Virus record (IMG/VR): IMGVR_UViG_3300010399_000068
Coordinates: 1-32,888 of that record
DNA from: a virus
Direction: 5' to 3' (one strand)
DNA length: 32,888 nucleotides
The position numbers and the translations under genes are program-made. Positions 1,965 to 32,541 of the stretch are shown here, piece after piece. The notes beneath the pieces were generated by a model. That model did no database searches, was not told where the DNA came from, and saw only the letters and a list, made by a program, of their open reading frames with translations. How positions within the stretch are numbered: position 1 is the first letter of the stretch; each line of letters opens with the position of its first letter.

Positions 1965-2185
1965 CGGACCTGCACGACGACTTCGAGCGCGCCTTCCGTC
2001 GCGTGGCGAATCCGGAGCCCGTCCTCGAGGAGCTCGCGCGCCAGGTTTGTGACCGCCTCGAGCAGTGGAAGGCCGACGGTCTGGTTGTGCGGCTGTCGAC
2101 GGCGATCGCGCTGGCGCGGGAGTTCGGCGTACCGCTCGACTATGTGTTCGCGGAGCGCGAGCGCCGGGTACGGGAGCGTCAGTGA
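1961..2185 (+). CDS. small charged hypothetical protein, 74 aa
   Basis: ATGA overlap with the upstream gene and GTGA overlap with the downstream ATPase gene place it tightly in the same translational unit. The product is rich in Arg and Glu and predicted mostly helical. The segment STAIALAREFGVPLDYVFAERERR resembles the second half of a helix-turn-helix or Xre-like fold, but the match is too weak for a firm call. Because it is coupled to the ATPase, it could be a partner or regulator of it (inference). Confidence 0.55.
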   Translation: MTDLHDDFERAFRRVANPEPVLEELARQVCDRLEQWKADGLVVRLSTAIALAREFGVPLDYVFAERERRVRERQ

Positions 2186-4872: not shown

Positions 4873-5220
4873 GTGGAGCAGTGGGCCGCGATCGCCGAGT
4901 CGCCTGCGTACGAGGTCAGTTCGTGGGGCCGCGTCCGCCGCGGTGAATTCGAGGTCGCGTCCTGGCCCAACGCCAAGGGCTATCACCTGGTCAATCTGGA
5001 AATCGACGGGCGGCCGCGTCTGCGGTACGTGCACCGGCTCGTCTTGACGGCGTTCCGCGGCCGCGACGTGCGCCGTCCACTCGCCAACCACGACGACGGC
5101 CAGAAGGGCCGCAACGTGCTCGAGAACCTGGCTTGGACGACGCCCTCCGCCAACGTGCTGCATGGGCGTCGAGTGCGGCTCGAGCGTGAGTACGGACAAG
5201 GGTCACTTTTCGCACTCTGA
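4873..5220 (+). CDS. HNH homing-type endonuclease (NUMOD4-HNH_3)
   Basis: 115 residues from GTG 4873. Residues 2-23 (EQWAAIAESPAYEVSSWGRV) are a clear NUMOD4 module, the DNA-binding unit of free-standing homing nucleases. It is followed by a YHLVNLEIDG hairpin and the HNH_3 core: VHRLVLTAF (first His), LANHDDGQKGRNV (central Asn-His), NLAWTT (closing motif). The family makes site-specific DNA breaks that spread the gene. It sits beside a NrdR-like zinc-ribbon gene, a pairing repeated 500 bases later. A stem-loop lies over its start. Confidence 0.85.
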   Translation: MEQWAAIAESPAYEVSSWGRVRRGEFEVASWPNAKGYHLVNLEIDGRPRLRYVHRLVLTAFRGRDVRRPLANHDDGQKGRNVLENLAWTTPSANVLHGRRVRLEREYGQGSLFAL

Positions 5221-18560: not shown

Positions 18561-18772
18561 TCGCGCTCCTGCAACGCGTCCGCGCGGCGTGGGACCTCTA
18601 CCGGCGGACGCAGCGCGTGCGGCGCCGGTTCCGGCGGCTCGGACCGCTCGGCCAGGCGCAGCTGGTCATCACCGCGATCGAGCGCGATCCGGAACTCCGT
18701 CAGCGCTTCCGTCAGGCCATCGGCATCAACATGGCCGGGCGGCCGCGGCGAGGAAAAGTCACGGTCCCGTAG
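18557..18772 (+). CDS. small basic protein between protease and capsid genes, 71 aa
   Basis: ATGA overlap with the protease stop. The product is highly basic (DLYRRTQRVRRRFRRLGPLG; INMAGRPRRGKVTVP) and helical. It could bind DNA, capsid or the protease; no family is recognised. A hairpin with a T-rich arm (18750-18783) spans its last codons and stop, so transcription or RNA processing may be adjusted here before the non-coding element and the capsid gene. Confidence 0.55.
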   Translation: MIALLQRVRAAWDLYRRTQRVRRRFRRLGPLGQAQLVITAIERDPELRQRFRQAIGINMAGRPRRGKVTVP

Positions 18773-18783
18773 GACTTTTTCTC
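18750..18783 (+). terminator. hairpin with A-arm and T-arm across the stop codon
   Basis: GAGGAAAAGTC (18750-18760) pairs with GACTTTTTCTC (18773-18783) over 11 positions with one G-T wobble. The loop ACGGTCCCGTAG can form a further short stem. The T-run is within the 3' arm, so it acts as a terminator only if the A-T part melts. Bidirectional intrinsic terminators have this A-stem-T layout. It lies two bases before the structured element at 18785. Confidence 0.5.
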
Positions 18784-18784
18784 C

Positions 18785-18985
18785 GCTACCAGATGCGGTA
18801 CAGCGCGGTCCTCATGGTCGCCGTACCGTAGAACACGTATTCAACGGCGCGCCGGCGCGGTGCTCTCTCGAGTGGCCGTCCGACGCGCGACGCAACACGC
18901 GGGTTTCTGTCGAAGCGCGCGGTTGTTGGTCGACTGCACCGGCGCACTCCGGCCAGTCGACCTGCAGCCGCGCGCTTTGTCTTTG
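18785..18985 (+). ncRNA. repeated structured RNA element, copy A (upstream of major capsid gene)
   Basis: No gene is present in 18773-19010. The element starts with the 20-mer GCTACCAGATGCGGTACAGC, identical in copy B at 30129. CTAC (18786-18789) pairs with GTAG (18828-18831), and GGTAC (18797-18801) pairs with GTACC (18823-18827), leaving CAGATGC as a conserved bulge. GCTCTCTCGAG (18862-18872) can form a CTC-TCTC-GAG hairpin, followed by the shared GTCCGACG (18878-18885). The shared block 18905-18926 is the 5' arm of a long terminal hairpin closing at 18977 with a T-rich tail. Position before the capsid gene suggests a regulatory leader; mechanism unknown. Confidence 0.6.
18913..18985 (+). 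terminator. long terminal hairpin with T-rich tail, copy A
   Basis: AAGCGCGCGG (18913-18922) pairs perfectly with CCGCGCGCTT (18968-18977). The helix continues through TTGT/GCAG by wobble pairs, then GGTCGACTG (18928-18936) pairs with CAGTCGACC (18954-18962), and CCGG/CCGG closes the loop. TTTGTCTTTG follows. This is intrinsic-terminator geometry 25 bases before the capsid start codon, so if active it must be read through or regulated for capsid production. Confidence 0.5.
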
Positions 18986-19010
18986 TACGCCGTATCGCAG
19001 GGAGAACGAA

Positions 19011-20309
19011 ATGGACCTGGTCAAGCACCTGAAGGGCCTCAAGCAGAAGAGGACCGACGCGCTTCTCGAGCAGGAGAGGCAGCTCGCCACCGCCGCGCAG
19101 CGCGGCAACGGGCTCACCGACGACGAGAAGCGGCGCGACGACGAGCTGAGCGCCTCGGTCGAGGAGCTCGACGCGGAGATCGCGCGCTATCAGCGCGTCA
19201 TCGGCCGCGACCGTGAAGCGACGCAGCCGCCCGCGCGTGACGACCGGTCCGCCGCGTTCAACGGCGATCGCCGCTGGGGCTACACCGACATCGCGCAGTT
19301 CGCGCGCGACGTTCGCGTGGCGTGCCAGCCCGGCGGCCGCATCCCGGAGCGCCTGGCCGCGATGCAGGCGGCGCTGCAGGCGGCGCCGTCGAACTACATC
19401 CAGGAGGCCAGCGGCGCCGACGGCAGCGGCTACGAAGTGCCGCCGCAGTTCAAGGCCGACATCTTCGAGCTCGTGTTCACCGACGCGGGCCTGCTCGAGG
19501 AAGTCGACAGCGAGCCGACCAATTCCAGCTCGGTCGAGATGGATGCGGACGAGACCACGCCGTGGGGCGCGAGCGGCGTCCAGGCGAAGTGGCGCTCGGA
19601 AGTCGGCCAGATGACGCCGTCGAAGCCGGACACCGACACGCGCCTGGTCAAGGTGCACGACATGTACGCGTTCGTGCTGGCCAGCGAGAACCTGATGAAC
19701 GACGCGCCTCGCCTGGCCTCGCGCATTACCAAGAAGGCGGCGGATGCGATTCGCTACAAGGCGAACGACGCCATCGTCAACGGCACCGGCGCGGGCCAGC
19801 CCCTCGGGTTCATGAACGGGCCCAGCCTCGTCACGCAGACCAAAGAGGGCGGCCAGGCGGCCGCCACGTTCAACGCGAACAACGCCGCCAAGATGTTCGC
19901 GCGACTGCTGCCCGCAGGCCTCGGCCGCTCGGCGTGGTACGTCAACTCGGACGTTCTGCCGCAGCTCTTCACGATGACACTCGGGCAGAACTCCGTGTTC
20001 GTGCCGCCGGCCAGCGGCTTCATCGGAGCGCCGGGCGGTTTCCTGCTCGGACGGCCGGTGCGCCCCGTCGAGCACTGCCAGACGCTCGGCACCAAGGGCG
20101 ACGTCGCGCTCATCGACCCGAAGGGCTACTACGCCCCGCTCAACGGCGGGCTGCAGTACGCCGAATCGATTCACCTCTATTTCGATTACGGCCTGAAGGC
20201 GTTCCGCTGGACCTTCCGCATGGGCGGACAGCCGTACCTCTCGGCCGCGGTGAGCCCCGCGAAGGGCAGCACCACGAAGAGCCATTTCGTGGTCATCGAG
20301 AACCGGTAA
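19011..20309 (+). CDS. major capsid protein, HK97 fold
   Basis: 432 residues; RBS CAGGGAGA precedes ATG 19011. Residues 1-75 are a charged coiled-coil segment (LKQKRTDALLEQERQLATAA, VEELDAEIARYQRVI), the delta/scaffold-like domain expected to be removed by the protease. Core landmarks are SGYEVPPQFKADIFELV, DMYAFVLASENLMNDAP with KANDAIVNGTGAGQPLGFM, ALIDPKGYYAPLNGG, and FRMGGQPYLSAAVSPAKGST. It forms the icosahedral shell. The 5' untranslated region contains the duplicated RNA element, and the stop codon lies in the loop of a hairpin. Confidence 0.93.
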   Translation: MDLVKHLKGLKQKRTDALLEQERQLATAAQRGNGLTDDEKRRDDELSASVEELDAEIARYQRVIGRDREATQPPARDDRSAAFNGDRRWGYTDIAQFARDVRVACQPGGRIPERLAAMQAALQAAPSNYIQEASGADGSGYEVPPQFKADIFELVFTDAGLLEEVDSEPTNSSSVEMDADETTPWGASGVQAKWRSEVGQMTPSKPDTDTRLVKVHDMYAFVLASENLMNDAPRLASRITKKAADAIRYKANDAIVNGTGAGQPLGFMNGPSLVTQTKEGGQAAATFNANNAAKMFARLLPAGLGRSAWYVNSDVLPQLFTMTLGQNSVFVPPASGFIGAPGGFLLGRPVRPVEHCQTLGTKGDVALIDPKGYYAPLNGGLQYAESIHLYFDYGLKAFRWTFRMGGQPYLSAAVSPAKGSTTKSHFVVIENR

Positions 20310-20321
20310 TCCCGGTTCTCG
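20297..20321 (+). other. perfect hairpin with the capsid stop codon in its loop
   Basis: CGAGAACCGG (20297-20306) pairs perfectly over 10 bp with CCGGTTCTCG (20312-20321). The 5-nt loop TAATC contains the capsid stop TAA (20307-20309). No T-tract follows, so it is not a standard terminator. It may stabilise the capsid message, slow terminating ribosomes or limit downstream expression. Confidence 0.5.
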
Positions 20322-20371
20322 CACCAGCGTGAGTCAGCGAGTTTCGTAACAGGAGAGACAGGGAGACGACG

Positions 20372-20821
20372 ATGGGCAATCCGAACATTCGACCCAGCGA
20401 CATCGCGACGGTGCTCGCGCGCATCGATCCGGACGCGCAGGCGGCCAGCACGGTCGATTCGATCTGGGTCGCGGTCAAGGACTACGCGCAGTTCCTCGCC
20501 ATCATCCAGGCGGGTGACCTGGGCGCCAGCGCGACGCTCGACGCGTCCGTGCGGCAGGCGCAGGATGCGTCCGGGACCGGCGCGAAGGCGATCACCGGCA
20601 AGGCGATCACGCAGCTGACGCAGGCGGGCAGCGGCTCGGACAAGATGGCGCTCATCAACGTCCGTCCCGAGGAGCTCGATCTCGACAACAGCTTCACGCA
20701 CATTTCGGTGCGCGTGACGGTCGGGACCGCCACGTCGGAAGTCGGCGCGCTGCTGCTCGGATTCAATCCGCGCTTCGGCCCGGGCTCGCACGTCGCGGCC
20801 GTCGCCGAGGTCCTCAACTAA
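20372..20821 (+). CDS. decoration-like / capsid-accessory protein, 149 aa
   Basis: RBS CAGGAGAGACAGGGAG precedes ATG 20372. The sequence MGNPNIRPSDIATVLARIDP, LGASATLDASVRQAQDASGT, AKAITGKAITQLTQ, LDNSFTHISVRVTVGTA and AALLLGF-like end is a recurring protein placed next to capsid genes in phages. It has a beta-sandwich pattern and no charge bias. The gene lies between two hairpins (20297 and 20838), suggesting an expression unit with the capsid. Function as decoration is inferred from position; a head-fibre or structural accessory role is possible. Confidence 0.6.
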   Translation: MGNPNIRPSDIATVLARIDPDAQAASTVDSIWVAVKDYAQFLAIIQAGDLGASATLDASVRQAQDASGTGAKAITGKAITQLTQAGSGSDKMALINVRPEELDLDNSFTHISVRVTVGTATSEVGALLLGFNPRFGPGSHVAAVAEVLN

Positions 20822-20837
20822 CCGGGGGGTACGACGG

Positions 20838-20877
20838 GAGCGGCGGGCTCTGCGGGCATACCGCACCCCGCCCGCTC
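20838..20877 (+). other. GC-rich hairpin after the decoration-like gene
   Basis: GAGCGG-CGGG (20838-20847) pairs with CCCG(C)CCGCTC (20867-20877) with one bulged base, and TGCGG (20851-20855) pairs with CCGCA (20861-20865) around GCATA. It fills most of the 72-base gap before the connector gene. There is no T-run, so it is not a clear terminator; an attenuating or processing hairpin is plausible. Confidence 0.4.
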
Positions 20878-20893
20878 GCGTAGGCCAACGCGT

Positions 20894-21511
20894 ATGCGGT
20901 GGTTGAACCTCGTCACGCCCCCGGCCGAGGCCGTCGAGCCGGTGACGCTGACGGAGGCCAAGGCCCATCTCCGGATCGACGCCGACATCACGACCTACGA
21001 CCAGCTGGTGACCGATCTCATCGTCGCCGCGCGCGACCGCGCGGAGCTCGAGACGAATCGGCAGTTGCTCACCGCGGGCTACCAGCTCGTGATGGACGCG
21101 TTTCCGTGCGGGCCGATCGAGCTGCCGCGGCCGCCGCTGCAGTCGGTAACCGCCGTCACATACGTCGATGCCGGCGGCCTCACGCAGACCTGGTCGTCCT
21201 CGCTCTACCAGCAGCTCGCACCACGGGGACCCTTCGCGGGCCGCGGCCTGCTGATGCCGGTCTACGGCGAGATCTATCCGGTCACGCGGCCGGAGACGCT
21301 CGCGGCGGTGACCGTGGCGTTCACGGCGGGCTACGGCCTCGCGGCGACCACCGTGCCGCGGTCGATTCGCCAGGCCTGCCTGCTGATGATCGGCGACTGG
21401 TTCCGGATGCCCGAGCAGATGGTGATTGGCGAGAACGCGTTCGCGTTCCCGCTGCCCGTCGGGGCCGCAGCGCTGCTGCGGCCATTCAAGAGCGAGCCCC
21501 TGCAGTGGTAA
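20894..21511 (+). CDS. head-tail connector protein (gp6-like)
   Basis: 205 residues. TPPAEAVEPVTLTEAKAHLR near the N-terminus is the hallmark of the gp6-like/phiE125 gp8 connector family. It is followed by DLIVAARDRAELETNRQLL, FPCGPIELPRPPLQSVTAVT and VPRSIRQACLLMIGDWF helices. These proteins make a ring under the portal that closes the packaged head. Gene order capsid-accessory-connector-adaptor supports it. The next gene starts at a GTG inside its last codons. Confidence 0.85.
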   Translation: MRWLNLVTPPAEAVEPVTLTEAKAHLRIDADITTYDQLVTDLIVAARDRAELETNRQLLTAGYQLVMDAFPCGPIELPRPPLQSVTAVTYVDAGGLTQTWSSSLYQQLAPRGPFAGRGLLMPVYGEIYPVTRPETLAAVTVAFTAGYGLAATTVPRSIRQACLLMIGDWFRMPEQMVIGENAFAFPLPVGAAALLRPFKSEPLQW

Positions 21512-21828
21512 GCGGCAATCTCCGCGAGCGCGTGACGTTCGAGTCGAAGACGCCGGCGAGCGATACGCAGGGCGGTCGCGCGCAAACGTGGACGACGGCG
21601 ATCACCAACGTCGCGGCGTGCGTCGACGTTGAGGATGCCGACAACGAAACGGTCCAGGCCGGGCAGCTGACGACGACGGCGAACTACCGCGTCACCGTCC
21701 GCTATCGCTCGAGCATCACCGCGAAGATGCGCGTCGCCTGGCGCGGCCGGACGCTGCAGATCACGGCGCTGCATGTGCCCGATGCCCGGCGCGAGTGGTT
21801 GACGCTGCGTTGCACATCCGAGGGGTAA
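21505..21828 (+). CDS. head-tail adaptor (head closure, SPP1 gp16-like)
   Basis: 107 residues from GTG 21505, overlapping the connector end by 7 bases. NLRERVTFESKTPASDTQGG, then YRVTVRYRSSITAKMRVAWR and LQITALHVPDARREWLTLRC are the ordered motifs of the phage head-tail joining family: an R-RVT.E strand, a central YRV.VRY, and RREWLTL. Small beta-barrel proteins of this type stop DNA leakage and connect to the tail. Start chosen by overlap; no earlier start avoids the connector gene. Confidence 0.8.
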   Translation: MVSGNLRERVTFESKTPASDTQGGRAQTWTTAITNVAACVDVEDADNETVQAGQLTTTANYRVTVRYRSSITAKMRVAWRGRTLQITALHVPDARREWLTLRCTSEG

Positions 21829-21836
21829 GGGCACCG

Positions 21837-22310
21837 ATGCCACGAAAGAGCTCGAGCACACACGCCATCCGGCTGTCTGGCCTGAAAGAGGCCCTCGCGG
21901 CGGTGGCCGCGCTGCCCGAGATGACCCGCGTGCGTGTGCTCGATGCGACGCGGCAGGCGGCATACCGCACCGCGCAGCGCGCCCGTCCGCTGGTGCCCGT
22001 CCGCTACGGGTTCCTGCGCGACGCGCTCGTGTGGAAGGTCAGCCGCGGCGGCATCGGCGTCGTCGGCATCGCGCGCCGACGGCATGCGCTGCCGGGACGC
22101 GGAGGCAGTGCGCTCGTATCGAAGGGCGCGCGCCTGGCCACCACGACGCAGTACGCGCACCTCGCGCACTTCGGCACACGGCGGTCGCGGGGCGTGCCGT
22201 TCATGACGATCGCCGCGAATGCGGAGCGGCAGGACTTTCAGAAGGACGTGAAGGCGGCGATGAGCGGCATCGGCGCTGACGTGGCGCAGATCGGGATGCC
22301 CAACCTGTGA
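21837..22310 (+). CDS. HK97 gp10-like tail-completion protein, 157 aa
   Basis: ATG 21837 has GAGGGGTAAGG upstream. IRLSGLKEALAAVAALPEMT opens the HK97 gp10-like family pattern (a helix with L..A...LP). RTAQRARPLVPVRYGFLRDA is the middle motif, and QYAHLAHFGTRRSRGVPFMT is the characteristic YA...E/H.GT-like end. It probably sits at the head-tail interface. Basic overall. GTGA overlap with the following gene. Confidence 0.75.
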   Translation: MPRKSSSTHAIRLSGLKEALAAVAALPEMTRVRVLDATRQAAYRTAQRARPLVPVRYGFLRDALVWKVSRGGIGVVGIARRRHALPGRGGSALVSKGARLATTTQYAHLAHFGTRRSRGVPFMTIAANAERQDFQKDVKAAMSGIGADVAQIGMPNL

Positions 22311-22738
22311 CGCCGGCGAAGGACGCCAGCGGACCCGTCGCCGTCGCTGTCTACGCGGCGCTCAACGTCGCCAGCCTGACGGCGCTGGCCACGGGCGGCG
22401 TGTTCGACATGGACGACGTGCCGCAGTCGAGCACCACGCCGTACGTCGGCATCGAAGTCGTCGACGAGCAGTCCGGCGAGATGGACACGATGGGGAAGCA
22501 CGGCGCCGAGGTGCTCGTGCACGTCCACGCGTTCAGCAGGTACGAAGGCGGGAAAGAGGCGCAGGCGATCGTCGGCAAGGCGAAGGAGCTTCTGGATTAC
22601 CAGGCGCTGACCGTGGCGGGCTGGACATTCGAGGCGTGTCAGTGGCGGCGGTCGTTCCGCGTCGATGACGAGATCATCGCTGGCCTCCGGACGCAGCACC
22701 GTGTCGCCGAATTCAACGTGAGGGTGTTCGAAGCATGA
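22307..22738 (+). CDS. tail terminator-like protein (DUF3168 type)
   Basis: 143 residues from GTG 22307. The pattern AVYAALNVASLTALATGGVF, DMDDVPQSSTTPYVGIEVVD, then EVLVHVHAFSR, AKELLDYQAL and FRVDDEIIAGLRTQHRVAEF is that of the DUF3168/gpU-like tail-terminator group: a small alpha/beta fold with P..TPYV and H.WS/AFSR. It would cap the tail tube next to the head. Position between gp10-like and tail-tube genes agrees. Confidence 0.75.
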   Translation: MTPAKDASGPVAVAVYAALNVASLTALATGGVFDMDDVPQSSTTPYVGIEVVDEQSGEMDTMGKHGAEVLVHVHAFSRYEGGKEAQAIVGKAKELLDYQALTVAGWTFEACQWRRSFRVDDEIIAGLRTQHRVAEFNVRVFEA

Positions 22739-23022
22739 CCCAGCCGAAGCCGGAGCACATCGTCGAGTCGTACGCAAACGAAGCGTACCGCTGGTATCTC
22801 GCCGTCGGCGTGCTCATACAGATCGCCGAGGAACTGCGCGGCATCCGCGCGCACCTCGACGCAGCGGCCGCGGCGCCGGCGGAGGTCGATCCGGCGGCCT
22901 GCCCGAAGTGCGGGGCTGACGACGAGCAGCAACGCGACGCGCGGTGCGGCGGCGAGCCGTATCGCTACAGCTGCAGCGTCTGCGACCACGAATACGACCG
23001 GCAGCCTGAGGGAGCGTCGTGA
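22735..23022 (+). CDS. small zinc-ribbon protein in the tail operon, 95 aa
   Basis: ATGA overlap at the start and GTGA at the end. Residues 1-50 are helical (RWYLAVGVLIQIAEELRGIR). Residues 56-90 carry ACPKCGAD and YSCSVCDHEYDRQ, two CxxC pairs of a C4 zinc ribbon with an extra Cys in RCGGEP. A zinc-ribbon gene between terminator and tail-tube genes is unusual for HK97-like phages. Its job is unknown; it may be a late regulator or an assembly factor. Confidence 0.6.
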   Translation: MTQPKPEHIVESYANEAYRWYLAVGVLIQIAEELRGIRAHLDAAAAAPAEVDPAACPKCGADDEQQRDARCGGEPYRYSCSVCDHEYDRQPEGAS

Positions 23023-23747
23023 TTCTCCGTGACCCGAAAATCTGGCTCGGTGAGTACGAGATCGCGTCGTCGCTCGTGAGCGTCGGCATGCCCTGGAAGC
23101 GGCGCGCGGTGGGCGGCACCACGTTCGGCGCCGCGACCGAGGTGAACAACGCCGGCCTCAGCTCGAACGCCTTTGCGCTGGGCGGCATCGTGGAGCTCGG
23201 GACCGGCTCGATCGAGGAGATCCTCGACCAGAAGAAGTTCGTCGACCTGGCGGTCTCCGTCGCGCCGGGCCCGAGCGTCGCCGAAGGCGACTTCGGTCAG
23301 TTCGTGCAGGGGATGGCGCTGGAGATCAGCCCTGCCGGGAAGATCGGCGACAACTACGGCGTCATCGCGAACGGTCAGGGCACCGGCGGCTACAACTCCG
23401 CGCGCGGCCGCGTGATGGGCATTGGTGCGAAGACCGCCACCGGGACGAGCGCCGCCTACCAGGACGGCGCCATCGCGTCGTACCAGCGGTTAATCGCCGC
23501 GCTGCACGTGACGGCAGTCTCGGGCGGGACGCCCAACCTCGTCGTGACGATTGAGAGCGACGACAACGCCGGGTTCTCCTCGCCCACGACACAACTCACC
23601 TTCACCGCCGCGACCGCCAAGACCTCCGAAGTCAAGGTCGCGAGCGGACCCATCACCGACACGTACTGGCGCGCGAAGTGGACGATCTCCGGCTCGACGC
23701 CGAGTTTCACCATCGGCCTGCTCGTCGGCAAGGCCTTCAAAGGATAA
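23019..23747 (+). CDS. tail-tube (major tail) protein, 242 aa
   Basis: GTG 23019 overlaps the previous stop. The protein is beta-rich with few charges: DPKIWLGEYEIASSLVSVGM, NNAGLSSNAFALGGIVELGT, VAEGDFGQFVQGMALEISPA. That arrangement, with a strand-rich core and an Ig-like C-terminus (LVVTIESDDNAGFSSP, DTYWRAKWTISGSTPSFTIG), is usual for siphovirus tail tubes. Position before chaperones and tape measure supports it. A second tail-tube-like gene follows, so which one forms the tube is not certain. Confidence 0.7.
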   Translation: MILRDPKIWLGEYEIASSLVSVGMPWKRRAVGGTTFGAATEVNNAGLSSNAFALGGIVELGTGSIEEILDQKKFVDLAVSVAPGPSVAEGDFGQFVQGMALEISPAGKIGDNYGVIANGQGTGGYNSARGRVMGIGAKTATGTSAAYQDGAIASYQRLIAALHVTAVSGGTPNLVVTIESDDNAGFSSPTTQLTFTAATAKTSEVKVASGPITDTYWRAKWTISGSTPSFTIGLLVGKAFKG

Positions 23748-23751
23748 CGAC

Positions 23752-24162
23752 ATGGTTCTGCGTGACTGTTTCCTCTCGATCAACTCCGTCGACCTGTCCA
23801 ACAAGGTCCGCCAGGTCTCGCTTCCGGAGCAGGTGATGCGCCAGGAGAACACCACGATGGGCGCCACGAGCGAAGACGGCGAGAAGGGCCTGCTGAAGTG
23901 GAAGCTGCAGGTGACGTTCAAGCAGGACTTCTCCGTCGGCAGCGTCGATGACACGCTGAACACGATCAAGGCCAGCGCCACCGGGAAGGCGCCGATCGAG
24001 ATCCGTCCCACGACCGCGGCCGTGGGCACGACGAATCCGAAGCGCACGGGCACCGCGCTCCTGGTCGAGTACGACCCGTTCGGCGGCACGCAGGTCGGTA
24101 ACGAGCTGTTCGTCACCGCGACGTTCGAATGCTCGGGTGACCTGACGCGGGCGACGGCGTAG
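23752..24162 (+). CDS. tail protein, possibly second tube or tail-associated protein, 136 aa
   Basis: ATG 23752 four bases after the previous stop; GATAACGA precedes it. LRDCFLSINSVDLSNKVRQV, KLQVTFKQDFSVGSVDDTLN, and NPKRTGTALLVEYDPFGGTQ with ELFVTATFECSGDL give a compact beta barrel like small tail-tube proteins (SINGVDLS... KVTFLQD). It lies between the larger tube-like protein and the chaperones. Either this is the tube and the larger protein is a spike or tube ornament, or the reverse. Confidence 0.65.
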   Translation: MVLRDCFLSINSVDLSNKVRQVSLPEQVMRQENTTMGATSEDGEKGLLKWKLQVTFKQDFSVGSVDDTLNTIKASATGKAPIEIRPTTAAVGTTNPKRTGTALLVEYDPFGGTQVGNELFVTATFECSGDLTRATA

Positions 24163-24166
24163 CCGC

Positions 24167-24547
24167 ATGGCGACCGTGACGATCGGCGGGCAGTCGCGCG
24201 CGCTGCGGTTCGACGTGTCCGCACTCAGCGAGCTCGAGCTGCGCTCCGACAAACATCTCGGGTGGTTCCTCGAGGAGCTACATCAGCGCCGGTGCGGGCC
24301 GGCGGTCACGCTGTGGCTGCTGTGGGCCGGTCTGCAGTACGAGGCCGCGCCGCCGTCCGTCCAGGACGTGAAAGCGCTGATGGCCGCGCACGTCGCCGGC
24401 GGGGGCCGGATGTTCGATTTCTATGCGCCGTTCGTCACGGCGCTCGGCGAGTCCGAGCTGCTGCGGCCGCCGAAGGGCGGTGAGGCAAACCCTCCGACGC
24501 CGGAAGCCGCATCCCCATCGGCGACTTCCGGTTCCGTGACTGGCTGA
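24167..24547 (+). CDS. tail assembly chaperone, gpG-like
   Basis: 126 residues ending TGA 24545-24547. ATVTIGGQSRALRFDVSALS and AVTLWLLWAGLQYEAAPPS match the small tail-chaperone fold, with a Pro/Ala/Ser tail after residue 105. In lambda-like phages this protein and its frameshifted longer form escort the tape measure during tail assembly. A slippery AAACCCT lies at 24487-24493 inside its 3' part, and an overlapping -1 frame without a start continues past its stop. Confidence 0.8.
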   Translation: MATVTIGGQSRALRFDVSALSELELRSDKHLGWFLEELHQRRCGPAVTLWLLWAGLQYEAAPPSVQDVKALMAAHVAGGGRMFDFYAPFVTALGESELLRPPKGGEANPPTPEAASPSATSGSVTG

Positions 24548-24765
24548 ACGCGCGCAAGCCGGTCCTCTACGGCTTCCACCGGCTGCGGCCATGGGAGGTC
24601 GCGCGGCTGCGACCCGGGGACGTGTACGACCTGGTCGAGGCCTTCGAGTGGGAAACCGAACGCCCGGGCTCGCTCGCCTGGGCGGTCGCGACGTGGCTGC
24701 AATCGACCGGCAGCGCGTTGCCGTGGTCCGCGCGGCTCGTGCTCGGACGGGATCCGCTGGTGTAA
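24167..24765 (+). CDS. tail assembly chaperone gpG-T made by -1 frameshift
   Basis: Reading 24167-24493, then slipping back one base and continuing 24493-24765, gives about 199 residues. The -1 frame is closed just upstream (TGA 24481-24483) and has no usable start, yet it reads well after the slip: IPIGDFRFRDWLNARKPVLY, RLRPWEVARLRPGDVYDLVE, and a Trp-rich end to TAA 24763-24765. This is the conserved G/G-T arrangement. The tape measure starts four bases after its stop, as expected. Confidence 0.78.
24487..24493 (+). promoter_or_regulatory. -1 ribosomal frameshift site AAACCCT
   Basis: In the gpG frame the codons are GCA AAC CCT, so the heptamer A AAC CCT has the X XXY YYZ form. After slipping, AAA and CCC pair well with the same tRNAs. 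It lies four bases after the last -1 frame stop (24481-24483) and before the gpG stop, exactly where the switch is needed. Confidence 0.75.
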
Positions 24766-24768
24766 CGC

Positions 24769-26145
24769 ATGGCTGACACAATTGCTGCCCTCATCGTCAA
24801 GCTGATCGCGGACACCACGGACATGGTGACTGGCACCAAGGCCGCGGAGACGCAGCTGACGGCGGTCGCCGCGGCCGCCGAGAGTACGTCGGGGCGCTTC
24901 AGCAGCCTCGCCACAGGTCTTGGGAACGCGGACAAAACGCTCGCCCTCTTCGGCGTCCATCTCACTCCGCAAATTCACGCGCTGCAGGAGATGTCCGAGG
25001 CGGTCGGCAAGACGACGTCCGATCTCGGGCTGTTCGGAACCGCGTCAGTCGCCGCGGGCGCCGCGCTGGGCGGCTGGTCGCTGGGTCGCTGGATCGCGGA
25101 CCTCACCGGCGCAGACCAGAAGATCGGCGACCTCACCGCGAAGCTCCTCGGTCTGGGCGACGTCGCCGCCGAGACGGCCGCGGCAAAGATGGACGTCCTC
25201 AGGAACGCGACGCAGCTCGCGGGCCGCGAGATCGCCAACTACGACGAAGCGGTACGGATTGTCACTGAACACGCGCAGCAGCTCGCCGCCGCGCTCAATA
25301 CGCCAGAAGCCCGCCTGAAGGCGCTCACCACGGAACTGGCGACGGCCGAGCGCCAATTCCGATCGCTGTCGGACGCGCAGGAGAAAGACATCCTGATGTT
25401 CGTCCAGCATCACGTGTCGATCGACGATCTCGCCAAGGCGTACGGCGTGCTCCCCGACGCGATTCAGCTCGTGATCGACCGGGAGAAGCTGCGGCAGGAC
25501 CAGCAAAAAATCGCGGTCCAACTCCAGAAGCAGGAAACCGACGCGCTCATCCAGGCTACCGAGGGCTGGAAGAAGTTCGCCGACCAGACCGCGCAGATCA
25601 GCAAGCTGCTCACGCAGTCGATCAAGGCCGATAGCCAGGCGCGCATGTTCGCGATGGACCAGGAAATCCTGAAGGTCGCGCAGCTGAAGGCGTCGCTCGA
25701 AGCGTCGTTCGCCTCCATGACCGGCCAGGCGAGCGCCGGCGGCGGCGATTCGTTCACGGCGCGGCAGGACGCGATCAACGGGAAGTACAACGCGATGCTG
25801 CAGCAGGCGCAGGCCGCGCCGGCAAGTCCGCTCCGCGACCAGACGATTGGGCAGCTCGAGCAGAACCGCGCCTTCGAGTTGTCGCAGCTGGCGATCACCG
25901 GCGGCCGCGTGCCCGGCTTCGCCAACGGTGGCATCGGCGATTTCGGTCGGGGCACCCTCGCCGTGCTGCACGGACGTGAAGCCATCATCCCGCTCGACAA
26001 GGTCGGCGGAGGCCTCGGCGGACAGACGGTGCACGTCCACATGAACGGGCTGCTCGTGAGCAACAGTCCCGCGGCGCGCGCGGAGCTCGCCGACTTCATC
26101 AAAGAGGCCGTGTTCTCGGCGGCGCGCGGCTCTCGCAAGTTCTAA
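24769..26145 (+). CDS. tail tape measure protein, 458 aa (short)
   Basis: Starts MADTIAALIVKLIADTTDMV, a typical tape-measure opening with a gap of three bases after the chaperone. Residues 95-115 are hydrophobic (AAGAALGGWSLGRW). The middle is a long helical region (ATAERQFRSLSDAQEKDILM, KLRQDQQKIAVQLQKQETDA), and the end has FANGGIGDFGRGTLAVLHGR followed by EAIIPLDKVGG, the conserved C-terminal glycine-rich motif. Tape-measure length sets tail length; 458 residues predicts a tail of roughly 70 nm, on the short side. No lytic transglycosylase or peptidase domain is visible. Confidence 0.88.
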   Translation: MADTIAALIVKLIADTTDMVTGTKAAETQLTAVAAAAESTSGRFSSLATGLGNADKTLALFGVHLTPQIHALQEMSEAVGKTTSDLGLFGTASVAAGAALGGWSLGRWIADLTGADQKIGDLTAKLLGLGDVAAETAAAKMDVLRNATQLAGREIANYDEAVRIVTEHAQQLAAALNTPEARLKALTTELATAERQFRSLSDAQEKDILMFVQHHVSIDDLAKAYGVLPDAIQLVIDREKLRQDQQKIAVQLQKQETDALIQATEGWKKFADQTAQISKLLTQSIKADSQARMFAMDQEILKVAQLKASLEASFASMTGQASAGGGDSFTARQDAINGKYNAMLQQAQAAPASPLRDQTIGQLEQNRAFELSQLAITGGRVPGFANGGIGDFGRGTLAVLHGREAIIPLDKVGGGLGGQTVHVHMNGLLVSNSPAARAELADFIKEAVFSAARGSRKF

Positions 26146-26157
26146 GTGAGGCGCTAG

Positions 26158-26646
26158 ATGGCAGACGACATTCAAATCACAGCGGGCTCGGGCACCACGG
26201 TCGCGACCGACGACGTCGGCGCCGGCCGCCAGGTGCAGCTCGTCAAACCGGTGTTCGGTGGCGACGGCGTCGCCACGATGCCGGACGCGACGAATCGCTT
26301 TCCCACGGAGGCCACGTTTGCGCGGCCGACGGCGGCGGGCCTCTCGAGCGCGCAGATCAACGAGAGCACGTCGGGTGACCGCACCATCCTCGCGGGCACC
26401 GCGTCGCAGACGGTACGCGTCTTCAAGTTCTTTCTCGAGAACGCCGGCACGGCGCCCGTCAGCATCAAGTTCAAGGACGGCGCGGGGGCCGACTTCCATC
26501 CCGCCATCGTGCTGCAGCCGGGTGGGTCGTTCGCCTTGCCCTTCGACGGCGAACCGTGGTTTGTCACCGCGAGCGGGAATGGTCTCGTGCTGAATCTCTC
26601 GGCGGCCGTCCAGGTCTCGGGCCGGTTCTACTACACGAAGTCGTAA
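26158..26646 (+). CDS. tail-associated structural protein, 162 aa
   Basis: Starts twelve bases after the tape measure stop. IQITAGSGTTVATDDVGAGR, VQLVKPVFGGDGVATMPDAT, then FKFFLENAGTAPVSIKFKDG and PAIVLQPGGSFALPFDGEPW form a beta-sandwich like small phage surface proteins (a strand with LQPGGS....D). No enzyme signature. It precedes the hub protein, so a tail-tip or collar component is likely; the exact name is uncertain. Confidence 0.6.
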   Translation: MADDIQITAGSGTTVATDDVGAGRQVQLVKPVFGGDGVATMPDATNRFPTEATFARPTAAGLSSAQINESTSGDRTILAGTASQTVRVFKFFLENAGTAPVSIKFKDGAGADFHPAIVLQPGGSFALPFDGEPWFVTASGNGLVLNLSAAVQVSGRFYYTKS

Positions 26647-26652
26647 CGCGCG

Positions 26653-29600
26653 ATGTCGCTGCTGCTGCTCCTCGGCGGTCGGGCGGGATTTCTCGGCGCC
26701 GGCGCCGCGGTCCTGTCGCTCTCGGCGCCGACCGCGGGCGTGGTCGCGGGTCCGGTCGTCCTGCAGGCGACGCCGGCGGTGCTCACGCTGTCGGCGCCGA
26801 CGGCGACGCTGCAGCAGACGCTCGCCGCCGGTTCCAACGCGGCGACGTTGACGGCGCCCACCGCGACGCTGGTGTCCTCCGGGACCATCACGCTCGCCGC
26901 CGGGACCAACGTGCTGTCGATGTCGGCGGGCGCCGCGGCGCTGTCGATCGACCTGACGGTCCCGATCGTCCAGATCGGCGGCGTCGACCGCACCGGCGAC
27001 GTGCGGTGGGACAGCCTGGTCATCAACGACGCGCTCAGCATCGAGCAGCCGAACACCTGCAGCTTCCAGATCGCCGGCGCCGCGCCGACCGAATGGCAGG
27101 AAGTCGTCATCGCGCTAGGCGCCGTCAACAACAAGCAGTTCGGGGGCCACATCCGGCGCGTCAGCCAGGTGCACGAGGACCTGCCGGCCAACGTGCTCTA
27201 CACGGTCGAGTGCGTCGACTACACCCGGCTGCTGAACCGCCGGAAGGTGCTCAAGCACTACCCGTCGCAGTCGGCGAGTCTGACGATCGCCGACCTCATC
27301 ACCACGTTCACGTCGGGGTTCACGACGGCGAACGTGGCACCTGGGCTGCCGACCATTGACGCGATCGACTTCGACAACGAGGACGTCTCACGCGCGATCG
27401 CGCAGGTGCTGAAGCTCGCCGGCGCGAAGGGCTACGTCGATTACGACCGCGACGTCCACGCCTTCATCACCGAGACCGTCGATATGCCGACGGACATCAC
27501 GGCGCTGAACATGCCCTTCAACAGCCCTGCGCTGACGAAGGCGGGTGACATCGCGCAGGTGCGCACGCGCGTCATCGTCGAGGCCGAGGCCAGCCAGGCC
27601 AGCGTCGAGGTCGCGCCAGGCGCGACGACGCTGCCAGTCGACGACGCCACACCGTACGCCTCGGCCGGCGGCACGGTGAAGACGGGCGTGCAGAAGGTGA
27701 CGTACACCGGCAAGGTGGCGGGCGGCACCGGCAGCACCGTCCGCAGCATCGACGGACCGGCGAGCGCGCCGACGCCCGCGATCGGCAGCGGCGCCGGCGG
27801 CGTGCTCGGGCCGGTGCGCTACAAGGCTAGCTTCAAGAACAGCGCGGGGGAGACTGTGCCGGGTCCAGCGTCGGGCCTGGTGACCGGCGTCGCGTTCCAG
27901 AAGCCGACACTCGGCCTCACGGTTGCGGCGGCGGCCGGCCTCGGGCGCCTGGTCGGCGGGTTCAATTACAAGACGACGTTCGTCACCGCGCTCGGCGAGA
28001 CGGACCTCGGATCGGTGGCGACCAGCTTCAGCGCCACGGCCGTCGCCGCGCCGACGGCGCCATCACTCGATTACGTGCCCGATGGGTCGAAGCATGCGTA
28101 CGGGCACCTGGTCGGCGCGTACGGCTACAAGGTCACCTACGTCACGCAGTACGGCGAGACCACGCCGAGCAGCGCAGGCACACGCACGGCCGCCGCGGTG
28201 GCGCCGACCGGCACGATCGCGCGCAGCAACCCCTCGACGATCATCGGGGCCCTGGCCGTCGGCGCGAGCGGGTACCACTACCAGTGCACCTGGATCGACG
28301 GGGAGGGGCGCGAGACCGTCGGCGGCGCCGATACCGCCATGGCCACGGTCAACGCGTCGACGCTGACGCCGGCGACGCCGTCGGGCGTGTTTGTCGCCGG
28401 CGGCGCGCTCGATGCCTCGGCAAGCTATGGCTGGAAGGTGTCCTTCATCGATCGTCACGGCCGCGAGTCGGCGCTCTCCGCCGCGACCACAGGTTCGACC
28501 ACCGGCACGAACAAAGCGCTCTCGCTCACGACTCCCGTCAGCAGCGCGACCGGTATCGTCGGCCGACGCATCTATCGCACGCTCGGCGGCGGGTCCACGT
28601 ACTACCTCGTCGCGGAGATCGCCGACAACACGACGACCGCCTTCCTCGACCAGGCGCCCGACGAGAACCTTGGACTGCTGGCGCCGAGCGTGGTGACGCT
28701 GTCCGACTCGTATCGATTGAGCCTGCCGTCGGGCCCGACCGGCACCACGGCGCGGCGCCTGTATCGGACGAAGAGCACTGGCGGTGCCTATTACTTCGTC
28801 GGCCAGGTCAACGACAACGGCGCGACGACGATCGACGACCTGCTTGGCGACGAGGACCTGGTGGACGGGATCCCGCTGGCCTCGACGGTCGGCGAACAGC
28901 ACACCGTCACGATCCCGACGGGCCCGACCGGCACGCTGGCGCGACGCATCTACCGGACCGCCGCCGGCGGCGCCGATTACAAGCTGCTCGCGGAGGTCCA
29001 GGACAACACGACGACGACGGCCGTCGACAACATCCCCGACAGCGGCCTGGCGTCGCAGGGGCCGCCGCTGTTGAACACGGCGGGCGGCCAGAACGCCGCG
29101 CTGTCGTCGATCCCGATCGGGCCGACCGGGACGACGGCCAGGCGCGTGTACCGCACGAAAGCCGGCGGGACTGAGTACTTCCTGTGCGGGCAGATCTCGG
29201 ACAACACGACGACGATCTTCACCGACTCGAAGAAGGACGAGGAACTCGGGGCCTCGTCGCCGCTGGTCAATGACGCCGGCGCCTCGACCGTGAGCCTGAC
29301 GAGCATTCCGCTCGGCGGCACGGGCATCACCGCGAGGCGTCTGTACCGCACGGAGAACGGCGGCTCGACATATCGCTTCCTGGTCGAGATCAAGGACAAC
29401 ACGACGACGACCTACACCGATTCGAAGAGCGACAACGATCTCGGCGACGTCGCGCCCGATGTCGGCACCATCGGTGCGCTCGCCGGCGACACGTCCCTGC
29501 GGGTGGAATCGACCAGTAACTTCCTCGCGGCCGGCGGCTGGGCGCAGCTCGACTCCCAGACGCTTCGGTACACCGGCCTGAGCGGCGGAAACACGCTGAC

Positions 29601-30129
29601 GGGGATTCCGTCCTCCGGCGCCGGTGCAATTCAGACGACCGTGAAGGCCGGCGTCGCCGTTATTGGCGCGCCGCATCTGACGGGCGTCCCCTCCGGCGGC
29701 GCCGGGGCGGTCGTCAACACCATCCCGAAGGGTGAGGCGGTCGACCTGTACGTCCAGCGCGACAACACGAGCCAGCAGGCGGCGATCGCCGCGCTCGAGG
29801 GCGGAGACGGCGTGCACGAACATGTCATCCCCGCCGGACGCATGACGGCCGCATCGGCCCAGAACCTGGCCGACGCCGACCTCGCGCTCTTCTCCGACAA
29901 GGAGAGCGTTGTCACCTTCGTCAGCCGGGACACGAAGCTGCGCAGCGGCAAGTCCATCACCGTGACGCTCGGCGCGCCGACGAACATCTCCGGCACCTTC
30001 ACGATTCAGCGCGTGACCCACACCGGCTACGGCGTGCCGCACCAGTACCCGCGCCGCAGCGTCGTGGCGTCGAGCTATCTGCTGACGGTGGACGACATCT
30101 TCCGCCGCCTTGAGCTCGCGGCCGCGTAG
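26653..30129 (+). CDS. tail hub / host-contact protein with inserted repeat modules, 1158 aa
   Basis: Residues 1-105 are low-complexity (LSLSAPTA, TLTAPTATL repeats). Residues 106-310 look like a gp27/Tal-like hub half: VQIGGVDRTGDVRWDSLVIN, LYTVECVDYTRLLNRRKVL, DFDNEDVSRAIAQVLKLAGA. Residues 375-620 hold four FN3/Ig-like units (YKVTYVTQYGETTPSS type), and 627-940 hold five units of about 64 residues with GPTGTxARRxYRT...DNTTT. The last 160 residues (DKESVVTFVSRDTKLRSGKS, SYLLTVDDIFRRLEL) look like the other hub half. The hub appears split by a long repeat insert probably exposed at the tail tip. RNA element copy B starts at its stop codon. Confidence 0.75.
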   Translation: MSLLLLLGGRAGFLGAGAAVLSLSAPTAGVVAGPVVLQATPAVLTLSAPTATLQQTLAAGSNAATLTAPTATLVSSGTITLAAGTNVLSMSAGAAALSIDLTVPIVQIGGVDRTGDVRWDSLVINDALSIEQPNTCSFQIAGAAPTEWQEVVIALGAVNNKQFGGHIRRVSQVHEDLPANVLYTVECVDYTRLLNRRKVLKHYPSQSASLTIADLITTFTSGFTTANVAPGLPTIDAIDFDNEDVSRAIAQVLKLAGAKGYVDYDRDVHAFITETVDMPTDITALNMPFNSPALTKAGDIAQVRTRVIVEAEASQASVEVAPGATTLPVDDATPYASAGGTVKTGVQKVTYTGKVAGGTGSTVRSIDGPASAPTPAIGSGAGGVLGPVRYKASFKNSAGETVPGPASGLVTGVAFQKPTLGLTVAAAAGLGRLVGGFNYKTTFVTALGETDLGSVATSFSATAVAAPTAPSLDYVPDGSKHAYGHLVGAYGYKVTYVTQYGETTPSSAGTRTAAAVAPTGTIARSNPSTIIGALAVGASGYHYQCTWIDGEGRETVGGADTAMATVNASTLTPATPSGVFVAGGALDASASYGWKVSFIDRHGRESALSAATTGSTTGTNKALSLTTPVSSATGIVGRRIYRTLGGGSTYYLVAEIADNTTTAFLDQAPDENLGLLAPSVVTLSDSYRLSLPSGPTGTTARRLYRTKSTGGAYYFVGQVNDNGATTIDDLLGDEDLVDGIPLASTVGEQHTVTIPTGPTGTLARRIYRTAAGGADYKLLAEVQDNTTTTAVDNIPDSGLASQGPPLLNTAGGQNAALSSIPIGPTGTTARRVYRTKAGGTEYFLCGQISDNTTTIFTDSKKDEELGASSPLVNDAGASTVSLTSIPLGGTGITARRLYRTENGGSTYRFLVEIKDNTTTTYTDSKSDNDLGDVAPDVGTIGALAGDTSLRVESTSNFLAAGGWAQLDSQTLRYTGLSGGNTLTGIPSSGAGAIQTTVKAGVAVIGAPHLTGVPSGGAGAVVNTIPKGEAVDLYVQRDNTSQQAAIAALEGGDGVHEHVIPAGRMTAASAQNLADADLALFSDKESVVTFVSRDTKLRSGKSITVTLGAPTNISGTFTIQRVTHTGYGVPHQYPRRSVVASSYLLTVDDIFRRLELAAA
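28531..29470 (+). repeat. five tandem coding repeats of about 190-200 bases in the hub gene
   Basis: Units start near 28531, 28726, 28915, 29107 and 29305 and encode GPTGTTARRLYRT, then SGG..Y.....I.DNTTT. They have diverged in sequence but remain aligned, as expected for expansion followed by drift. They lie in the region between the two hub halves and may vary among related phages. Confidence 0.6.
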
Positions 30130-30333
30130 CTACCAGATGCGGTACAGCCGATCGCGTGGTCCGGGCGTACCGTAGAGACTCCTGACCAACAGGCGGCGTC
30201 GGGCGCCGGCGCTCTCTCGAGCGCGGGTCCGACGAGCGCGCAACCAGCGGCCTTCTATCGAAGCGCGCGGTTGTCCGTCCTCGGGCGTGTGTGAACCACG
30301 TGAACGCCGAGGCGCACAGCTGCGCGCTTTTTT
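30129..30333 (+). ncRNA. repeated structured RNA element, copy B (after hub gene)
   Basis: No gene is present in 30130-30357. The 20-mer GCTACCAGATGCGGTACAGC starts on the last base of the hub stop codon. CTAC (30130-30133) pairs with GTAG (30172-30175) and GGTAC (30141-30145) with GTACC (30167-30171), again leaving the CAGATGC bulge. GCGCTC-TCTC-GAGCGC (30209-30224) is a perfect 6-bp hairpin where copy A uses wobble pairs. GTCCGACG (30227-30234) and the block 30253-30274 match copy A. A long terminal hairpin with a T6 run ends the element 24 bases before the next start codon. Not recognised as any RNA family I know. Confidence 0.65.
30261..30333 (+). terminator. intrinsic terminator hairpin of RNA element copy B
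   Basis: AAGCGCGCGGTTGT (30261-30274) pairs over 14 positions with ACAGCTGCGCGCTT (30316-30329), two of them G-T wobbles. CCTCGG (30279-30284) pairs with CCGAGG (30307-30312), with three more pairs beyond a bulged G. T6 at 30328-30333 follows the GC-rich stem. This is a strong intrinsic terminator by geometry. It fits the end of the hub transcript, or the end of a small RNA. Confidence 0.72.
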
Positions 30334-30357
30334 GTCGTTACCCGGGCGATGTGAGCC

Positions 30358-30798
30358 ATGAACCTGATTTACAACGAGGCGAAGAAGCAGATCCTCAACG
30401 GCTCCATCGACCTCGACACGAGCACGTTGAAGGTGATGCTCGTCAAGAGCACCTACACCGCCGACGCTGACCACGCCGCGATCGACGACGGCACCGGCGG
30501 CGACCCGCAGAGCCACGAAATCAGCGTCAGCGGCTACGCCCGGCAGGCGCTGGCCAGCCGCGTCGTCGACAAGGACAACACGGGCGACTTTGGCTACCTG
30601 GACGCCGACGACACGGTCTTTGCGTCGCTCGCGACCGGCGAGACGATTGGCGGCGCCATCATCTTCAAAGACACCGGCGTCGATTCCACCAGCATCCCGA
30701 TTGCCTTCTACGACCTGACGGACACACCGACCAACGGCAGCACCATCACGGTCCAGTGGGCGGCCGTCGCCAGCGGCGGCGTCATCAAGGCGGCGTAA
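30358..30798 (+). CDS. phage structural protein, 146 aa
   Basis: MNLIYNEAKKQILNGSIDLD, TLKVMLVKSTYTADADH, SGYARQALASRVVDKDN, GGAIIFKDTGVDSTSIPIAF and STITVQWAAVASGGVIKA form a beta-sandwich phage protein often found beside fibre genes. The first start available after RNA element copy B is ATG 30358; only weak purine-rich sequence precedes it. No enzymatic residue is evident. Probably a tail-tip or fibre-base component. Confidence 0.65.
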   Translation: MNLIYNEAKKQILNGSIDLDTSTLKVMLVKSTYTADADHAAIDDGTGGDPQSHEISVSGYARQALASRVVDKDNTGDFGYLDADDTVFASLATGETIGGAIIFKDTGVDSTSIPIAFYDLTDTPTNGSTITVQWAAVASGGVIKAA

Positions 30799-31892: not shown

Positions 31893-32101
31893 CGCGCTTC
31901 TGGACCGTCTGGGGCGGCCTGCTCATGTGGCTGGTCGGCGGACTCGTGAGCATCGCGATGGTCGCGCTGTACGCCTACCACGACTTCGATAAGCGACTCA
32001 CCGTCGTCGAGGTCGTGATGTCGCGCATCGAACGCAAGCTCGACACCGCGGCAGGCGTGTCGCCGGCCGCGCAGGTGACGTCGACGTCGGGGACCCGGTG
32101 A
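31889..32101 (+). CDS. holin-like or small membrane protein, 70 aa
   Basis: GTG 31889 overlaps the previous stop (GTGA). A single hydrophobic span occupies residues 5-29 (WTVWGGLLMWLVGGLVSIAM then VALYAY), followed by a charged helical segment (KRLTVVEVVMSRIERKLDTA) and a Ser/Thr-rich end. One span plus a coiled C-terminus resembles class III holins or hemolysin-XhlA-type proteins. Holin is an inference from location and topology; no endolysin gene is visible next to it. Confidence 0.5.
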   Translation: MTRFWTVWGGLLMWLVGGLVSIAMVALYAYHDFDKRLTVVEVVMSRIERKLDTAAGVSPAAQVTSTSGTR

Positions 32102-32541
32102 TCGCGCGGGCGATGGACGCGGCGGTCCCGGGCAGCTTCCTGGCGCCGCTGCGCCACGAGCACGAGGGCGGGCGTCGGTGGATGGTCGTCGAGGAGTTCA
32201 CGTACCTCACGCGCGCCGGCGAGCTAATCGTCGTCCCCGCGGGTTTTGTCACGGACGGGGCGTCGGTGCCGCGGCTTTTGTGGTGGTTGTTTCCGCCGTT
32301 CGGTGGGAACTATGACGAGGCCGCGGTCATCCACGATCACCTCTACAGTGAGGCCGAGCTCTACGCCGGCGATGATGACGGTCACGTGAGCCGGGCGCAC
32401 GCCGACACGTTGATGCTCGAAGCGATGGGTGTCAAGGGCGTCGACATTGTCGATGCCAGGCTCATCTATCGGGGTGTGCGCCTGGGGGGCTGGTGGGCGT
32501 GGCGTCGCCATCGGGCCGCCGCGCGCCGCCGTCGACCATGA
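32098..32541 (+). CDS. DUF1353-type phage protein, 147 aa
   Basis: GTG 32098 overlaps the previous stop. The core VVEEFTYLTRAGELIVVPAG, FVTDGASVPRLLWWLFPPFG, YDEAAVIHDHLYSE and HADTLMLEAMGV is the DUF1353 signature: GF.TDGAS.P, then AA..HD.LY. This family is frequent near the lysis/tail end of phage genomes. Its biochemical function is not established. The Arg-rich tail (WRRHRAAARRRRP) is unusual. The next gene starts within its last codon. Confidence 0.8.
   Translation: MIARAMDAAVPGSFLAPLRHEHEGGRRWMVVEEFTYLTRAGELIVVPAGFVTDGASVPRLLWWLFPPFGGNYDEAAVIHDHLYSEAELYAGDDDGHVSRAHADTLMLEAMGVKGVDIVDARLIYRGVRLGGWWAWRRHRAAARRRRP

Follow-up and report, generated by a model that had tools for sequence, protein, structure and literature searches.

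Late-gene control is known in detail for only a few model phages. Four systems come closest to the leader described here. The put RNA of phage HK022 is a phage RNA of two stem-loops that affects termination. The RAT sequence recognised by regulators of the BglG/SacY/LicT type is a single larger, imperfect stem, which overlaps the 5' arm of a terminator and is stabilised by an RNA-binding protein. In ANTAR-target RNAs, an operon is preceded by two small hairpins that resemble each other and are read through their loops by one dimeric protein (PMC3369931); these loops are hexanucleotides with A at position 1 and G at position 4 (PMC3369931, PMC8164766), and the linker between the two hairpins measures 2-25 nt (PMC8164766). 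At the late promoter of lambda, finally, the Q protein is loaded at a promoter-proximal pause (PMC7171158).

The cassette considered here occurs in an IMG/VR virus contig of 32,888 bases (hereafter the window, meaning this whole stretch), whose terminase, portal, protease and HK97-type capsid genes point to a siphovirus-like phage. Behind a putative promoter, its leader carries in order a small hairpin (H1), a look-alike hairpin (H2) and a long intrinsic-terminator-like stem directly 5' of a start codon. It thus resembles the ANTAR-target RNAs (EutV, AmiR, NasR) in having tandem hairpins of which the second overlaps a terminator, but its loops are tetra- or pentaloops (UCUC, UGUC, UAUC, CGAGA, CGAGU, CCAA, CGUU and others) that do not follow the ANTAR rule, and its hairpin cores start 41-45 nt apart, leaving about 31-35 nt between them, more than the ANTAR linker. 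With RAT it shares a hairpin laid over the terminator 5' arm, although here as one of a pair, and unlike HK022 put, which acts directly on the polymerase, it is built over a terminator. A search of 14 records, many of them fragments, gave no ANTAR domain over the cut-off and no CAT_RBD (BglG-type) domain, and a protein of the latter kind could be supplied by the host. By analogy, we propose that the cassette works like ANTAR dual-hairpin or BglG antitermination.

The two copies in the window, A (18785-18983) and B (30129-30335), are homologous, lie on the + strand and are free of genes (Table 1). A preliminary description had reported two copies in the same orientation, with five blocks in a fixed order, in gene-free gaps of 238 and 228 nt, and all of this is borne out: the gaps extend over 18773-19010 and 30130-30357, and the blocks begin, in A and B respectively, at 18785 and 30129 (a 20-mer), 18822 and 30166 (CGTACCGTAGA), 18862 and 30211 (GCTCTCTCGAG), and 18878 and 30227 (GTCCGACG), followed by a last block, TTCT[G/A]TCGAAGCGCGCGGTTGT, with a single mismatch between the copies. 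The 20-mer occurs only these two times in the record, even if 2 mismatches are allowed. When copy A was compared with the window by blastn, it matched at 79% over 149 nt with E = 1e-23, a likeness not attributable to chance, yet the linkers between the blocks are unrelated in sequence and nearly equal in length. Copy A stands before the major capsid gene, whereas copy B is preceded by a 1158-aa tail-region ORF and followed by the gene of a 146-aa protein, after which comes an ORF with weak tail-fibre likeness. The 71-aa ORF that precedes copy A runs at its stop codon into a terminator-like hairpin, which would fit the end of an upstream unit there and a new transcription unit beginning at copy A.

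Table 1 Coordinates of the two cassettes and adjoining features in the window
Feature	Position	Strand	Basis or remark
Intrinsic-terminator-like hairpin AAAAGTC-N12-GACTTTT	18754..18780	+	sequence; terminator scan match at 18763
Copy A block 1, 20-mer with dyad TACC-N6-GGTA (18787-18800)	18785..18804	+	identical in copy B
Copy A block 2 with predicted -10 TAGAAC (18829-18834)	18822..18834	+	34-35 nt 5' of H1
Copy A H1, apical core CTC-TCTC-GAG at 18863-18872	18847..18888	+	fold; layout scan
Copy A H2, core TTC-TGTC-GAA at 18905-18914	18899..18920	+	fold; layout scan
Copy A terminator-like stem, 16 bp basal plus apical hairpin	18911..18983	+	fold; layout scan
Major capsid protein (HK97 type), gene after copy A	19011..20309	+	phrog_10, E 2.5e-46
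Copy B block 1	30129..30148	+	first base is the final base of the 1158-aa ORF's stop codon
Copy B block 2 with predicted -10 TAGAGA (30173-30178)	30166..30178	+	39-40 nt 5' of H1
Copy B H1, apical core CTC-TCTC-GAG at 30212-30221	30197..30234	+	fold; layout scan
Copy B H2, core TTC-TATC-GAA at 30253-30262	30247..30268	+	layout scan
Copy B terminator-like stem with TTTTTT tail	30260..30335	+	terminator scan, fold, layout scan
146-aa protein, gene after copy B, among tail genes	30358..30798	+	phrog_644

Read from its sequence, the 3' part of each copy, about 145 nt, is the leader RNA of the capsid gene (A) and of the 146-aa gene (B). Folding supports both the TCTC-loop hairpin (H1) and the long terminal hairpin with a T-rich end that had been noted before, and adds H2, the second small hairpin overlapping the terminator, which the preliminary description had missed. 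H1 and H2 are spaced 41-42 nt apart in the two window copies, and their loops are similar without being identical (UCUC in H1 vs UGUC or UAUC in H2). In copy A, GAAGCGCG is common to H2 and the terminator 5' arm, and the stem ends in an interrupted T tract, TTTGTCTTT. Sequence and fold agree with what defines an attenuator in general, namely a hairpin and an intrinsic terminator that are mutually exclusive within a leader, and H2 of copy A would be the antiterminator. Since the terminator state is favoured over the H2-enforced state by about 7 kcal/mol in A and 3 kcal/mol in B, switching would need a factor. Most leaders have interrupted T tracts and may therefore terminate in part only. Such interrupted tracts, like the position of long stems immediately before a highly expressed gene's ribosome-binding site, would also be expected if the leader, with its 5' hairpins and RNase III-type long stem, served in stabilisation or processing and raised capsid mRNA stability or translation without any switch; this, however, explains neither why the T tails persist nor why the loops of H1 and H2 match within each phage, and we regard it as quite unlikely. 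Tracts interrupted in the same way (TTTNNNTTTG) often follow the pre-capsid stem in other records (L028, L031, L035, L037, L069, L132, L166), and are perhaps tuned partial terminators.

Searches among cultured phages (DNA search and megablast) gave no match to the element. Because no cultured phage in the collection carries it, relatives were gathered from viral contigs, most of them fragments, through their terminase and capsid genes. Among the cultured capsid relatives inspected, the gap 5' of the capsid gene does not exceed about 100 nt, and capsid relatives L018-L026 mostly have short gaps or unrelated terminators. A 16-mer pattern scan of viral contigs returned 15 matches, none with the rest of the element, and a pattern combining H2 and the terminator returned none. 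What recurs in pre-capsid gaps is a layout, consisting of a TTGACA-N16-19-TANNNT-like promoter, then about 130 nt, and towards the 3' end a small hairpin set directly against a long stem rich in GC, then a T-rich tail, a ribosome site and the capsid start. Scanning for YUC-N3/4-GAR abutting a stem gave 23 unique matches in 1.9 Mb, 10 of them in the window or upstream of a capsid gene and all ten with matched stem ends (CUC with GAG, UUC with GAA), compared with 3 in 0.79 Mb of shuffled sequence. The same fixed motif found little in a second set of capsid loci, because the stems differ among phages, and the pairs emerged once it was dropped. A scan of both strands of 3.04 Mb for the full layout, that is, two similar hairpins 40-46 nt apart with the second on a stem of at least 8 bp with a T tail, produced 30 matches vs 8 in shuffles. 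Apart from copy A, the full layout stands 5' of the capsid gene in L132, L136, L170, L171, L176, L178, L179, L180 and L181, directly adjoining it in all but L181, where one small gene intervenes; L046 also has it before the capsid gene, though its pair is looser. Copy B is an additional site, not before a capsid gene.

The hairpin sequence is matched within one phage and differs among phages. Five relatives have exact repeats, 11-mers in L170 (TCACGAGATGA), L180 (TCACGAGTTGA) and both L171 and L176 (CTACGAGATAG), and a 10-mer in L178 (CTCCCAAGAG). The paired cores read UCA-CGAGA-UGA (L170), UCA-CGAGU-UGA (L180), CUA-CGAGA-UAG (L171 and L176), CUC-CCAA-GAG (L178), CUC-CGUU/CGUA-GAG (L181) and CUC-CGAU/CGAA-GAG (L136), with looser pairs in L132, L179 and copies A and B. 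The spacing of core starts, 41-45 nt across phages, narrows to 43-45 nt in the closest capsid relatives, and the 3' arm of H2 is the terminator 5' arm in every case. A lack of homologues with compensatory changes would, by the preliminary description, have refuted the structure; instead, nine other phage records have homologous layouts whose stem ends change in a matched way (CUC/GAG, UUC/GAA, AUC/GAU, UCA/UGA and CUA/UAG). Being dyads (TCA-N5-TGA, CTA-N5-TAG, CTC-N4-GAG) at 41-45 bp, about four helical turns, just 3' of a promoter, the cores might instead be operators in the DNA, bound by a dimeric regulator. With 3 bp, however, the half sites are short for this, and the second repeat always coincides with a terminator arm; moreover, extended stems contain G-U pairs (L170 GCGUUCA/UGAGCGC, L180 GCUUCA/UGAGGC), and on their 3' side an additional A is found at a recurrent place (L132, L136, L179, L171, L176), so that RNA fits better than DNA operators, which we hold to be distinctly improbable.

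As a wider finder of the paired RNA hairpins, the pattern TACGAGATRG occurring twice was rejected, as its matches are real only in L171, L176 and L177 and otherwise lie in unrelated contexts. One leader of L178 (1764-1873) has the CTCCCAAGAG hairpin three times rather than twice (starts 1764, 1820 and 1864), and L050 has diverged direct repeats of about 33-35 nt (GAGCGAGCC...GAGAGAACCG) 5' of its capsid gene, at about 14555-14660, and also elsewhere in the record. Judged from the records compared, the phage of the window is unusual in carrying the cassette twice; the covered parts of L028, L037/38, L069, L170 and L181 gave no second one.

The 5' third of each copy, about 50 bp holding the two most conserved blocks, had been described as a hairpin with a CAGATGC bulge. 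As RNA this hairpin finds no support: the divergent 17 nt in its interior do not outdo shuffled or random inserts in folding (p 0.17-0.47), and in relatives the place is taken by a promoter. The spacer between blocks 1 and 2 is 17 nt long in both copies, with unrelated sequence. Since nine relatives have a sigma70-like promoter at the corresponding place, this third should most probably be read as a promoter that has a dyad or binding site upstream of it. TTGACA is exact in eight of the nine (L181 has TTGATT); in seven it lies 60-65 nt 5' of H1, and in L178 it precedes the first hairpin, against a background of about 2e-4 per base, and the -10 hexamers lie about 37-46 nt 5' of H1. The window copies have no -35 consensus, and block 1, with its dyad, extends over the -35 region and further upstream. 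A predicted -10 without a -35 consensus, the cover of block 1 over -35 and the inner hairpin's failure to outdo random inserts together lead us to infer an activator-dependent promoter in blocks 1-2, with block 1 as the activator site. The structured non-coding element in two copies therefore stands, though not as one RNA of about 200 nt, but as a probable promoter plus upstream binding site, about 50 bp together, joined to the leader. On the + strand of the whole 32.9-kb window TTGACA is absent, although in close relatives it serves as the -35 element for the capsid gene. Elsewhere, a promoter-like motif (TTGA/TTGC ... GGGCGCATGTTGA) occurs three times in the genome of one relative, on the strand of the capsid gene (L035 8622-8650; L083 1054-1072 and 3418-3438).

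A test for hairpin pairs in 34 leaders against shuffles gave a Fisher p of 1.6e-9 (1.3e-8 without the window), values that are optimistic because the spacing of 40-46 nt was picked after the first pairs had been seen and some leaders were included because of the motif; copies A and B taken alone reach modest values (p 0.03 and 0.05). Both copies were also turned into a covariance model, as the preliminary description had advised; it finds relatives weakly, with full-length matches in the pre-capsid gap of several, but the reverse fails, as the relatives-only model (R2) did not recover the window copies. An alignment of seven relatives has changes on both sides in 11 of 32 pairs, with a covariation energy that is slightly unfavourable because loops and spacing differ. 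In gapped alignment to A and B, the L132 leader scores above every control or nearly every one (p about 0.002-0.004, the lowest that 500 trials allow). With blastn, the leader core gave no significant match to L132, its best match being to L066 (E 4e-6). That match, 84% over 43 nt between L066 10387-10429 and the H1 region of copy B, lies away from the contig's capsid gene and may reflect coding sequence or chance. What links the window to the relatives is a common layout and position, together with a single good gapped alignment, that to L132. Terminator-like hairpins are common before capsid genes in the collected loci, and one could thus imagine a chance likeness among generic promoter-terminator regions of GC-rich phages, with A and B simply duplicated; but the copies share blocks across unrelated linkers of nearly equal length, the layout scan and the pair test exceed shuffles, and the promoter stands at a fixed distance, which makes this hardly credible. 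The earlier statement that the element belongs to no named RNA family agrees with an Rfam scan of the window and 12 relatives, in which nothing exceeded the gathering threshold and only weak miRNA-like matches, to the copy A stem, appeared.

As a layout, the cassette has good support: the two copies, the promoter position in relatives, the matched hairpins at fixed spacing, the overlap with the terminator and the position before capsid genes are all seen in the sequence, and a single scheme could accommodate them. We think it fairly probable that each copy is a late-gene attenuator composed of promoter, twin-hairpin leader and terminator, in which a predicted factor holds the hairpins and prevents termination. 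Transcription would start at the promoter in blocks 1 and 2 of each late-operon cassette, and the leader would terminate by default, directly before the first gene. As H2 takes the terminator 5' arm as its own 3' arm, H2 and the terminator would not both form fully. A factor, most likely a phage RNA-binding protein and possibly dimeric, would read both H1 and H2; with both held, the terminator base beside the U tract could not close, and the polymerase would continue into the capsid operon (A) or the 146-aa/tail operon (B). More tentatively, and with rather more doubt than belief, we suggest a new phage antitermination system, in which a phage-encoded RNA-binding protein reads a lineage-specific 'address' in both hairpins and licenses transcription of capsid and, here, tail-region genes, the match within and variation between phages reflecting protein-RNA co-evolution. 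If true, the recurrence of a capsid-gene attenuator in some ten lineages of uncultured phages would suggest a new antitermination factor, and hairpins matched within but variable between phages offer a directly testable reporter design. In the open-access literature we found no leader of this kind before phage capsid genes, which does not prove its absence.

The order of late promoter, short terminated leader and late genes is that of lambda PR'-6S RNA-tR' (PMC7171158), although Q acts at DNA and polymerase whereas the cassette has paired leader hairpins, precedes a capsid gene and is used twice. It could accordingly be speculated that the short terminated transcript is itself the product, a trans-acting small RNA like the lambdoid leader, with the downstream gene reached by read-through or through a Q-type antiterminator and the hairpins forming no switch; the U6 of the copy B terminator would suit this, and conserved block 1 could be the DNA site of a Q-type factor. 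Yet this does not explain why matched hairpins stand at a fixed spacing and why H2 always overlaps the terminator, and no Q family match was found among the ORFs tested, in a record that may be a fragment. We consider this unlikely, and favour the attenuator.

Three further genes of the window may be recorded. A 579-aa ORF (2182-3921), which has a Walker-A-like GQTQLSGKTT stretch at its start and no Pfam or PHROG match, is possibly a HerA/FtsK-like ATPase. The early region holds an HNH endonuclease (4873-5220, phrog_959), and a DUF1353 protein (PF07087, phrog_1158) lies near the right end, at 32098-32541.
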